Below are positions 20 to 15,975 of a stretch of DNA of 64,000 nucleotides, piece after piece; the first letter of the stretch is position 1; the number at the start of each line of letters is the position of its first letter. This stretch comes from Candidatus Cloacimonadota bacterium (lineage in GTDB: Bacteria; Cloacimonadota; Cloacimonadia; Cloacimonadales; WRIO01). The position numbers and the translations under genes are program-made. Below the pieces are notes generated by a model, which saw only the letters and a list, made by a program, of their open reading frames with translations, was not told where the DNA came from and did no database searches. Location of the stretch: contig WRLO01000003.1 of assembly GCA_009777575.1 (NCBI GenBank), positions 1 through 64,000 of the forward strand, in the 5' to 3' direction.

Positions 20-103
20 AATCCCCCCACCCCCCCCCCCCCCCCCCCCCAAAAGGGGGGGGGGGTTCTCCCCCCATATTGGGGGGGGGGGGGTAGGGGG
101 GGG
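20..103. repeat. Low-complexity poly-C / poly-G element (C6-A-C21, A4-G11, C6, G13-TA-G8)
   Basis: Direct reading of the long C and G homopolymers; resembles the G8-TA-G8 element at 15511-15552. Confidence 0.8.
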
Positions 104-2195
104 ACACAAAGTCCAAATCCTCGATCCTGCTACAGGTACTGGCACTTTCCTTGTAGAAACGATAAAACAGATACACCACAAATTTTCCAGTCAACAAGGG
201 CTTTGGCAAAGTTATGTTTCAGACCATCTACTACCTCGCTTAAACGGTTTTGAAATCCTAATGGCACCATATACAATGGCACATCTAAACTTAAACTGGA
301 CACTTGAAAAAACAGGATTTACTAATGAAAATGAAAAGAGATTGCGGGTATTTCTTACCAACTCTTTGGATGAATTTTCAGAAGGACATCGTGGGCAGGA
401 CAGATTATTTTCTCAAGAAGCTGACGAAGCGGGTACTGTAAAACTTGATACTCCTGTAATGGTAGTTTTGGGAAATCCACCTTACAGTGGAGTTTCATTG
501 AATAAAGACGAGTGGATCTTGAAAAAAATAAACGATTATAAATATACAGAAGGTGTCTATTTTAATGAAAGGAAACATTGGTTAAATGATGATTATGTGA
601 AATTTATTAGGTTAGGGCAAGATTTTGTTGATAAAAACAAATCTGGAGTATTAGCCTATATCACAAATCATAGTTTCTTAGACAATCCGACATTTAGAGC
701 TATGCGTTGGAATTTATTGAAAAGTTTCGACAAAATATATATTATCGATTTACATGGAAGTAGCCTAAAAAAAGAAATCACCCTTGATGGGGCTAAAGAT
801 GAAAATGTGTTTGATATAATGCAAGGTGTATCGATAAATATATTTGTAAAAAGTAAACCGAACTTTTCTTGTCATTGCGATGAACATAGCAATCAGGAAG
901 ACTCGTCAACTAGAAAGTTGACACCACTTGCAGAAATTTTTCACCATGACCTTTATGGAAAGCGAAAAGACAAATTTACTTTTTTATTGAATAACAACCT
1001 TTACACTGTTCCCTTTAAAAAAGTTGAACCACAAGCACCATTTTATTTTTTCACTCCCAAAATATTTGATAATAAATCTGAATATGAAAAAGGGTTTAAA
1101 ATTAATGAACTAATGGAAAAAAATGTTTCTGGGATTGTTACTATGGGTGATGGTTTTATTATCAATAACGATAAAAAGGAGTTATTTAAGAGAATAAATA
1201 AATTAGTTAGAAACGAGTATAATAAACATGATTTAGATACAAAATTTTCCTTAGGTAGAAATTATTCAAAATGGGTTTTGAATAATATTTCTAAAATAAT
1301 TCCAGATGAAAATAAATTAATTCAAATTAATTATCGTCCTTTTGACACAAGATGGGTTTATTTTGAAACTAACACTATTTGGAGAATGCGAGATAATATC
1401 ATGCGCCATTTTATGAATGGTCCAAATGTAGGTCTGATGTTATGCAGGCAACAAAAAGCAGGTGAGTTTCATCATTGTTTTGTTCACAGAAATATTGTAG
1501 AATCAAGCTATGTTTCAAATAATACCTCTGAAATCGGATATTCATTCCCCCTTTACTTTAAACCAGAGAAAGAAAATAAATTCGCACAGCCTAACATGAA
1601 TATGGCTATAGTACAAAAAATAGCAAATCATATAGGTAAACAGAGCGTAACTACAAAACAATTCTTCTCTTACGCAATTTCCGATGAAAATAACGAACTA
1701 ACCCCAATAAATATATTCGATTATATCTACGCTCGCTTACATTCTCCATCATACAGAGAAAAATATAAAGAGTTCCTCAAAATAGATTTTCCAAGAGTTC
1801 CATATCCTGTAAATGCAGATGAGTTTTGGCATTATGTAAAAGTTGGTAGGAGATTACGCAAACTTCATCTGATGGATGGAGTTCAGTCTGACTATCAAAT
1901 AGCGAATTTTAATATTGCTGGTGACAATTCAATCGATAAACCAAAATATATAAACATAGATGACGAAATAGGAAAGGTTTACATCAACGAAACACAATAT
2001 TTCGACAATGTTCCATTGGTAGCTTGGGAGTTTTACATCGGAGGCTACCAACCCGCTCAAAAATGGCTCAAAGACAGGAAAGGAAAAGCATTGTCTTATG
2101 ATGATGTAATTCATTATCAGAAAATAATTCAGGTTTTACAAAAAACAGAGACTATAATGAAAGATATTGATGACATTGAGGGAAAGAAAGTCTAA
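102..2195 (+). CDS. Type ISP/IIG-like DNA methyltransferase / restriction enzyme, 5'-truncated or disrupted
   Basis: Same frame as ORF 261-2195 reads upstream as VQILDPATGTGTFLVETI (motif I), then VVLGNPPYSG (motif IV, NPPY). Frame runs back into the G-tract and meets TAA at 18-20. Confidence 0.75.
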   Translation, partial: GHKVQILDPATGTGTFLVETIKQIHHKFSSQQGLWQSYVSDHLLPRLNGFEILMAPYTMAHLNLNWTLEKTGFTNENEKRLRVFLTNSLDEFSEGHRGQDRLFSQEADEAGTVKLDTPVMVVLGNPPYSGVSLNKDEWILKKINDYKYTEGVYFNERKHWLNDDYVKFIRLGQDFVDKNKSGVLAYITNHSFLDNPTFRAMRWNLLKSFDKIYIIDLHGSSLKKEITLDGAKDENVFDIMQGVSINIFVKSKPNFSCHCDEHSNQEDSSTRKLTPLAEIFHHDLYGKRKDKFTFLLNNNLYTVPFKKVEPQAPFYFFTPKIFDNKSEYEKGFKINELMEKNVSGIVTMGDGFIINNDKKELFKRINKLVRNEYNKHDLDTKFSLGRNYSKWVLNNISKIIPDENKLIQINYRPFDTRWVYFETNTIWRMRDNIMRHFMNGPNVGLMLCRQQKAGEFHHCFVHRNIVESSYVSNNTSEIGYSFPLYFKPEKENKFAQPNMNMAIVQKIANHIGKQSVTTKQFFSYAISDENNELTPINIFDYIYARLHSPSYREKYKEFLKIDFPRVPYPVNADEFWHYVKVGRRLRKLHLMDGVQSDYQIANFNIAGDNSIDKPKYINIDDEIGKVYINETQYFDNVPLVAWEFYIGGYQPAQKWLKDRKGKALSYDDVIHYQKIIQVLQKTETIMKDIDDIEGKKV

Positions 2196-14136: not shown

Positions 14137-14160
14137 AATTTATCCCCTCGTTTATTACTT

Positions 14161-14278
14161 CATTTTGGTTCTTCTTCTTTGAATATTCCAAAGGAATTAT
14201 GGCTTGTTAGAAAACTTTTCATTTTGGTTCTTCTTCTTTGAATATTCCAGAGGAATTATGGCTTGGTAGAAAACTCGC
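14161..14278. repeat. 59-bp tandem direct duplication, each with an imperfect hairpin ATTCC-(A/G)-GGAAT
   Basis: cattttggttcttcttctttgaatattccaaaggaattatggcttgttagaaaact at 14161 and a near-identical copy at 14220. Confidence 0.9.
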
Positions 14279-14315: not shown

Positions 14316-14386
14316 CACATCTCGAAGAGATGTGACGCTTAGTAGAAAAAAATCTATAAAAACCTCTCCTACCCTGAAAGGGTAGG
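14316..14386. repeat. Two perfect 8-bp hairpins with GAA triloops
   Basis: CACATCTC-GAA-GAGATGTG (14316-14334) and CCTACCCT-GAA-AGGGTAGG (14368-14386). Confidence 0.85.
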
Positions 14387-14478: not shown

Positions 14479-15975
14479 TTATCTTATGAAAAAAGAAATA
14501 ATTTTTTCATACACCGTTTCCACAGAAATCATCTCCATGCAGTTTAAATGACCTTGGGGACATTTTTTACCTCCGTGACTACCACAGGGACGACATCCTA
14601 AATCGACTTCGAATACAAAATCTTTTGCATTGAAAGGAAAATATCCAATATCCTTTACAGTTGGTCCAAAAAATGCAAAAACAGGGGTCTGCATAGCGTT
14701 AGCTATATGTAAAGTCCCACTATCATTACAAACTACTAAATCTACTTTTTCTATCAAGGCTGCGGTGTCAAGCAGACTGAAACTACCTGCAATAGATTGG
14801 ATATTTTTTGCCTCACCCAGCGTCTTTGCGAGGTTACTTACTTGAATTTCCCGCGAAGCAATCTCGGAATGGGGGTGGTTTAATATCTGCTCTGTCAATT
14901 CCCTTTCCTGACTATCGATAGATTGGATATTTTTTGCCTCACCCAGCGTCTTTGCGAGGTTACTTACTTGAATTTCCCGCGAAGCAATCTCGGAATGGGG
15001 AGTATTCAATATCTGCTCTGTCAATTCCCTTTCCGGACTATCGATAGATTGGATATTTTTTGCCTCACCCAGCGTCTTTGCGAGGTTACTTACTTGAACT
15101 TCCCGCGAAGCAATCTCGGAATGGGGGGGGGGCAATATCTGCTCTGTCAATTCCCTTTCCTGACTATCGATAGATTGGATATTTTTTGCCTCATCCAGCG
15201 TCTTTGCGAGGTTACTTACTTGAATTTCCCGCGAAGCAATCTCGGAATGGGGAGTATTCAATATCTGCTCTGTCAATTCCCTTTCCTGACTATTACCTGA
15301 CAGGATGACATTGAAACCTGCCGCAAGTAGTTTTTGAGTTAATAAAGTGTAGTTTTTAAGAGGCCATCTCTTTGTAAACCAAACAGAACCCGGTGCAATT
15401 AAAATTATTTTTTGGTTTTGGGGTAGGCTTTCTAATAAATTTTGTGCTTTTTGATAGTTTTGGATAGTGGGATAGAGATGAGTCCTGTCACTACTATTAA
15501 TACCACACCTTAAATCTCCCCACACATTTATGGGGGGGGTAGGGGGGGGGCAAATCAACTCCAACAACCTCAAATTCTTCAACCTCTTATGCATCCCCTT
15601 AGGATGAGCTATCTTATGTGTCAAAAAAAACTGCTGTATATACCTCTTGAATCCTATTCTTTTTTTTATTCCTGCCAAAAATGGTATCAATCCAGACCTA
15701 AAGGAGCTATGAGGAGAGATAGAAATATCATAGCTTTCTTTTCTGAGGCATTTTATGAAACTCAAAAACTCCCAAAATCCCTTATGTTTCTTATCAAAAC
15801 TGATTATTTTATTGATACTGGGATTGTTTTCGAGTAATTTTGCACATTGAGGGATTACCATGACATCAATACTCGAGTCAGGGTAGAGTTTTTTTAAACT
15901 ATATATCAATGGGGTTACAAGTATCACATCACCAATAAATGCAGTTTGGATGAGGAGAATTTTGGTTATATTCAT
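14479..15975 (-). CDS. GT9 glycosyltransferase (ADP-heptose:LPS heptosyltransferase-like) with internal in-frame tandem repeats
   Basis: ILLIQTAFIGDVILVTPLIYSLKKLYPDSSIDVMV; IILIAPGSVWFTKRWP; DLVVCNDSGTLHIANAMQTPVFAFFGPT. Confidence 0.88.
   Translation of the reverse strand: MNITKILLIQTAFIGDVILVTPLIYSLKKLYPDSSIDVMVIPQCAKLLENNPSINKIISFDKKHKGFWEFLSFIKCLRKESYDISISPHSSFRSGLIPFLAGIKKRIGFKRYIQQFFLTHKIAHPKGMHKRLKNLRLLELICPPPTPPINVWGDLRCGINSSDRTHLYPTIQNYQKAQNLLESLPQNQKIILIAPGSVWFTKRWPLKNYTLLTQKLLAAGFNVILSGNSQERELTEQILNTPHSEIASREIQVSNLAKTLDEAKNIQSIDSQERELTEQILPPPHSEIASREVQVSNLAKTLGEAKNIQSIDSPERELTEQILNTPHSEIASREIQVSNLAKTLGEAKNIQSIDSQERELTEQILNHPHSEIASREIQVSNLAKTLGEAKNIQSIAGSFSLLDTAALIEKVDLVVCNDSGTLHIANAMQTPVFAFFGPTVKDIGYFPFNAKDFVFEVDLGCRPCGSHGGKKCPQGHLNCMEMISVETVYEKIISFFIR
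14795..15298. repeat. Four contiguous 126-bp tandem repeats (42 aa each) inside the GT9 CDS
   Basis: gattggatattttttgcctca starts at 14795, 14921, 15047 and 15173, exactly 126 bp apart. Confidence 0.95.
15511..15552. repeat. G-rich dispersed element (G8-TA-G8) inside the GT9 CDS
   Basis: taaatctccccacacatttatggggggggtagggggggg, similar to the element at 18-103. Confidence 0.65.

Follow-up and report, generated by a model that had tools for sequence, protein, structure and literature searches.

A dispersed palindromic repeat inserted in frame, and probably then amplified in tandem, within a putative heptosyltransferase gene of a Cloacimonadota bacterium

Introduction

What is known of palindromic repeats that code for protein comes mainly from Rickettsia and Wolbachia. 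Those described there as RPE and WPE form in-frame fusions with conserved enzymes, and the sites examined are exposed to solvent (PMC2229807; also PMC3767692, PMC4224334), and a guanylate kinase bearing an RPE has been reported to be active (reviewed in PMC2229807). Similar in-frame inserts occur in recombination genes of Wolbachia. A second group, the CGTC-tagged REPs, consists of high-copy, dispersed repeats that also lie in frame within ORFs, including DNA-repair ones such as those of UvrD/REP helicases; in Thauera and R. conorii, clusters of them code for 43-82 aa. The published families have stems of 8-9 bp and loops of 4-5 bp, and are arranged mainly as head-to-head dimers, head-to-tail arrangements being negligible (Di Nocera, De Gregorio and Rocco 2013, PMC3733652).

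Here we analyse a window of 64,000 nucleotides from the genome of an uncultured Candidatus Cloacimonadota bacterium (a MAG-like draft of 3.76 Mb, 91% complete and split into 198 contigs), in which two unrelated palindrome families are carried by many genes and both lie in a single glycosyltransferase gene. The case is one of intragenic insertion of the REP/RPE type, a known process; judged from the sequence, the tandem amplification of a hybrid unit and the double insertion would be its new points, and a limited literature search found no account of either the amplification of an element together with native enzyme flank or of two families in one gene. The locus thus represents a striking extreme of a known route by which dispersed DNA repeats enter proteins, and a step beyond insertion appears to be visible in it, namely the amplification of element plus native flank as a protein repeat. 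It provides a concrete case of a new repeat segment arising in an enzyme from dispersed DNA repeats, and makes the tolerance of such inserts testable.

Results and discussion

The gene at 14479-15975 (minus strand) encodes a protein of 498 aa that matches Pfam Glyco_transf_9 (PF01075, E 1.4e-33) and scores 160.9 bits against the NCBIfam model for heptosyltransferase II (TIGR02195), above the cut-off of 134.6. The top solved structure found by Foldseek for the predicted model is 1psw, heptosyltransferase II of E. coli (E 2e-21, TM by target 0.80), and the model adopts a GT-B fold like that of WaaF/WaaC. By model score and predicted fold, the product is a putative heptosyltransferase II-type GT9 enzyme. 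It was aligned with 29 relatives belonging to the order and with 32 taken from named records. In a profile search, the best 20 named matches are mostly from Cloacimonadota, the others including one from Delongbacteria and one from Calditrichota; this one protein thus points to Cloacimonadota as the likely phylum. One relative (L123) that at first seemed longer has a second GT9-like frame beside it.

Within this gene, four in-frame units of 42 codons each follow one another head-to-tail over 14788-15291 in the coding register. TRF delimits the array as 14792-15293, with a period of 126, 4.0 copies, 94% matches and zero indels, and identity at a lag of 126 is 356/378 in the array vs a mean of 113/378 in random stretches of the window. 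The first-pass annotation had placed the motif gattggatattttttgcctca at 14795, 14921, 15047 and 15173 and had read from it a 126-bp spacing and four in-frame units; the motif lies at all of these positions, the spacing and frame are borne out by TRF, unit alignment and lag identity, and the consensus peptide first given for the unit is correct. On the minus strand, unit 1 (15166-15291, first in the protein, delimited by TRF and unit comparison) reads SQERELTEQILNTPHSEIASREIQVSNLAKTLDEAKNIQSID, unit 2 (15040-15165) has the variant PPPHSEIASREVQ, unit 3 (14914-15039) has the variant SPERELTEQIL, and unit 4 (14788-14913), placed by unit comparison, alignment and junctions, continues into the native GT9 sequence KNIQSIAGSFSLLDTAAL. 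Pairwise, the units differ at 2-9 of 126 positions; most of the differences, like the run of ten C in unit 2, fall in a stretch of 7 bp that borders the palindromic element (described below) on its 5' side. The substitutions are mostly non-synonymous.

Private variants are present in every unit, and the array is internal to its contig. These features, together with the fact that assemblers normally collapse such arrays and do not invent variants, make it very unlikely that the assembler generated the array from one or two units, even though draft contigs here end in G/C runs and the 504-bp array exceeds usual short reads; a single insert would hold regardless. Four may nevertheless not be the true copy number in a draft of this kind, though every unit has its own variant.

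In the relatives, a few residues connect the helix (EERELCQRIL, for example) with the following strand (NAINLAG), and helix and strand each occur once. In the window protein, by comparison, SQERELTEQILN is followed by about 20 element-encoded residues and KNIQSIAG, and the entire block is repeated. The array segment was found in 0/29 relatives from the order and 0/32 named relatives aligned, the loop being short in both sets, so that the earlier proposal of an in-frame insertion into a GT9 loop stands. Each unit thus consists of the helix of the GT9 loop, the element (about 20 aa) and the start of the next strand, and about half of it is native GT9 sequence. This composition suggests that insertion came first and that amplification of the block followed. 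The junctions after units 1-3 share one sequence, which is not that of the outer edge, native sequence following unit 4 only, as is expected of one duplication that was later amplified; this agrees with the first-pass view that an enlarged block with its native flanks had been multiplied. Separately, CTATCGATAG is the sequence at the unit junctions (15164-15173, 15038-15047 and 14912-14921); it is a perfect palindrome of 10 bp, and its central CG is present in neither native edge.

The history that we favour, with a probability of about 0.87, is therefore one of in-frame insertion of an element into the GT9 loop, then tandem amplification of element and native flanks to four units, the element likely being tolerated. 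A genome-wide, largely stop-free palindromic repeat has inserted in frame in the C-terminal Rossmann domain of the heptosyltransferase, into the surface loop that leads from the helix SQERELTEQIL to the strand NIQSIAG, adding about 20 residues apparently without breaking the enzyme. The 42-codon block of element and native flanks would then have undergone tandem duplication and further amplification, up to four copies, probably through replication slippage and unequal recombination.

The first-pass annotation had taken the central part of the unit for a dispersed palindromic repeat, and the genome contains at least 292 copies of it. The core of this family-1 element is an imperfect palindrome, TTGCGAGG-N15-40-GAAGCAATC, with 142 + 150 matches in the genome and 0 for the reversed pattern. 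In the array it lies on the plus strand, antisense to the gene and with its CGTC end first, at 15199-15252 in unit 1 (core pattern 15204-15241), 15073-15126 in unit 2 (core 15078-15115), 14947-15000 in unit 3 (core 14952-14989) and 14821-14874 in unit 4 (core 14826-14863). The element is about 51-65 bp long. Its inverted arms, GAGGTNNCTTC and GAAGCAATCTC, are 11 bp each and 13-15 nt apart, and on average 8.6/11 positions pair vs 4.3-5.6 when the arms are slid. Shuffled sequences fold just as well as the 126-bp unit (folding energy z -0.03; RNA and DNA folding), which indicates that the palindrome is imperfect in this GT9 copy. The nearest other copy, on contig C26, is alike across 70 bp, including 15 bp past the CGTC end, and the inserted module may thus be somewhat longer than the palindrome. 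The pattern is absent from three other genomes of the same family and from most of the order, while some genomes of one other family hold family-1-like copies, at most 26 in a genome, whose middles differ.

The genomic context was read from a sample of 752 kb, which is biased, consisting of 40 stretches picked for known element matches plus the window. With two mismatches allowed, it contains 226 family-1 copies, grouped into 63 clusters; at least two copies are present in 36 of these. Neighbouring pairs have the same orientation in 159/163 cases, mostly forming head-to-tail arrays with a usual period of 63-67 bp. The family consensus opens with CCGTC, and GTC lies one base ahead of the core in 206/223 sampled copies. 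Family 1 therefore resembles the CGTC-tagged REPs in its CGTC end, its high copy number and its in-frame location in ORFs (a DNA-repair-type helicase is also hit here, by family 2), but differs from their families 1-4 in its arms of about 11 bp and loop of about 13-15 nt, from their dimeric arrangement in its head-to-tail neighbours, and from all of them in that the amplified GT9 unit includes host-gene sequence. It is also unlike the GTAG REPs mobilised by RAYTs, GTAG occurring in just 2/223 copies. As to a possible mover, four Y1_Tnp genes score over the cut-off; the examined flanks of three have no family-1 copy and the fourth locus has a single degenerate copy at its edge, so that no association with Y1 transposases was found. 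With the RPE the element shares stop-free, in-frame insertion in genes for conserved proteins (GT9, PKD, T9SS-tail proteins and others), and is set apart by length and host, RPE being about 100-150 bp long and found in other hosts. The likeness to Rickettsia palindromic elements initially drawn holds as a mode of action, but the element itself would fall outside the named RPE and CGTC-REP families. PARCEL repeats, which vary in number, offer a further parallel, being likewise repeated in tandem in the protein and showing dyad symmetry at the DNA level; they differ, however, in having a 25-residue amphipathic motif in ORFs without an assigned function, many of which are membrane-targeted, whereas the present 42-residue unit lies inside a known enzyme. 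Rfam holds no family for the element, the sole match being a weak one to snoU25 far below the gathering score, and a text search with the motif letters returned unrelated sequences only, such as primers.

AlphaFold, run with 32 sequences, gives a mean pLDDT of 80, the core being mostly above 90, while the array residues 281-388 are at about 37-54 and the helices drawn there are not trustworthy. The GT-B core is thus predicted to be intact, and the array leaves it as a segment modelled with low confidence. All alignment-wide invariant columns are retained, including D16, K202, N417 and D418; given this and the intact core in AlphaFold and Foldseek, the inserts lie outside a core that has kept every invariant residue. 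Long helices run through the array in the model, the first at pLDDT 70-79, and all units are stop-free and in frame with few changes per unit, as might be expected of a selected variable-number repeat, for instance a helical stalk for oligomerisation or membrane contact that is kept or tuned by selection. We consider this very unlikely, since the changes between units are mostly non-synonymous, the rest of the array is of low confidence, no aligned relative has it and the same elements are lodged in many unrelated proteins. Most likely, the inserts are tolerated, near-neutral mobile DNA rather than a selected part of the enzyme.

A second in-frame insert in the same gene, overlooked by the first-pass annotation, encodes 15 aa, PPPTPPINVWGDLRC, at 15505-15549 (minus strand; palindrome core 15518-15538). 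Its position is a gap in 28/29 relatives from the order, the remaining one having unrelated residues, and in 32/32 named relatives. The insert belongs to a second palindrome family, CCCCCCCATAAATGTGGGGGG, which is unrelated to family 1 and has 55 genome copies at no more than one mismatch; no exact match to its pattern was found in the other 98 genomes searched. Its peptide PPPTPPINVGG, or the other-strand form PPTFMGG, recurs in a UvrD-type helicase, EpsG, AAA ATPases and a PKD protein, and alignment of the UvrD-type helicase with its relatives shows an insert of ~22 aa at the family-2 peptide. Two independent inserts in one gene, and unit differences that are mostly non-synonymous, could also mark a decaying pseudogene that has yet to acquire a stop. 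Such decay is very unlikely for a frame of 498 codons that is open, keeps its invariant residues, retains up to 50% identity with relatives outside the inserts and is adjoined on the same strand by further glycosyltransferase-like genes (names read off translations).

Both families also occur translated, in several frames, in other genes, including those of secreted proteins, the inserts surveyed being in-frame ones. For family 1, each of the three antisense frames is used, as is one sense frame: the element is found in T9SS-tail proteins (LRDCFVGNSSKEPRND), in PKD proteins (RLLRGENSSGKPRNDD), in sense orientation in an AAA protein (SLRGSSLEYPSEAIS), and as 17 in-frame copies (SRLLRGEFQGSDLATTG), some in 51-bp tandem, in an ORF of 5829 aa (L090:2466-19952, minus strand). 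It could be speculated that this lineage keeps palindromic repeats stop-free in several frames, seeding in-frame tandem amplifications that yield length-variable enzyme loops, and that the heptosyltransferase array, were its copy number to vary today, would act as a contingency-like modulator of surface glycans; we regard this as unlikely.

Several further features were noted. By eye, the 5829-aa ORF has leucine-rich BspA-like and fibronectin-like parts. In L093, L101 and L107, protein-coded runs of the NGEWRMEN and ILHFVQND types probably represent two further dispersed repeat families in frame. At the left end of the window, a type ISP/Eco57I-like methylase fragment (21-1502, plus strand) contains another insert missed at first, PPPPPPPPPKRGGGFSPHIGGGGVGGG, just ahead of the DPATGTG motif on its N-terminal side; it derives from C/G runs resembling family 2 and, lying at the contig end, is possibly an assembly flaw. 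Farther along the same fragment, CHCDEHSNQEDSS looks REP-like. Downstream of the GT9 gene, 14159-14275 holds two 59-bp direct repeats with the palindromic core TTGAATATTCCAAAGGAAT, which occurs 18 times in the genome, and 14316-14339 is a palindrome, CACATCTCGAAGAGATGTGACGCT, with 15 genome copies at up to 3 mismatches.
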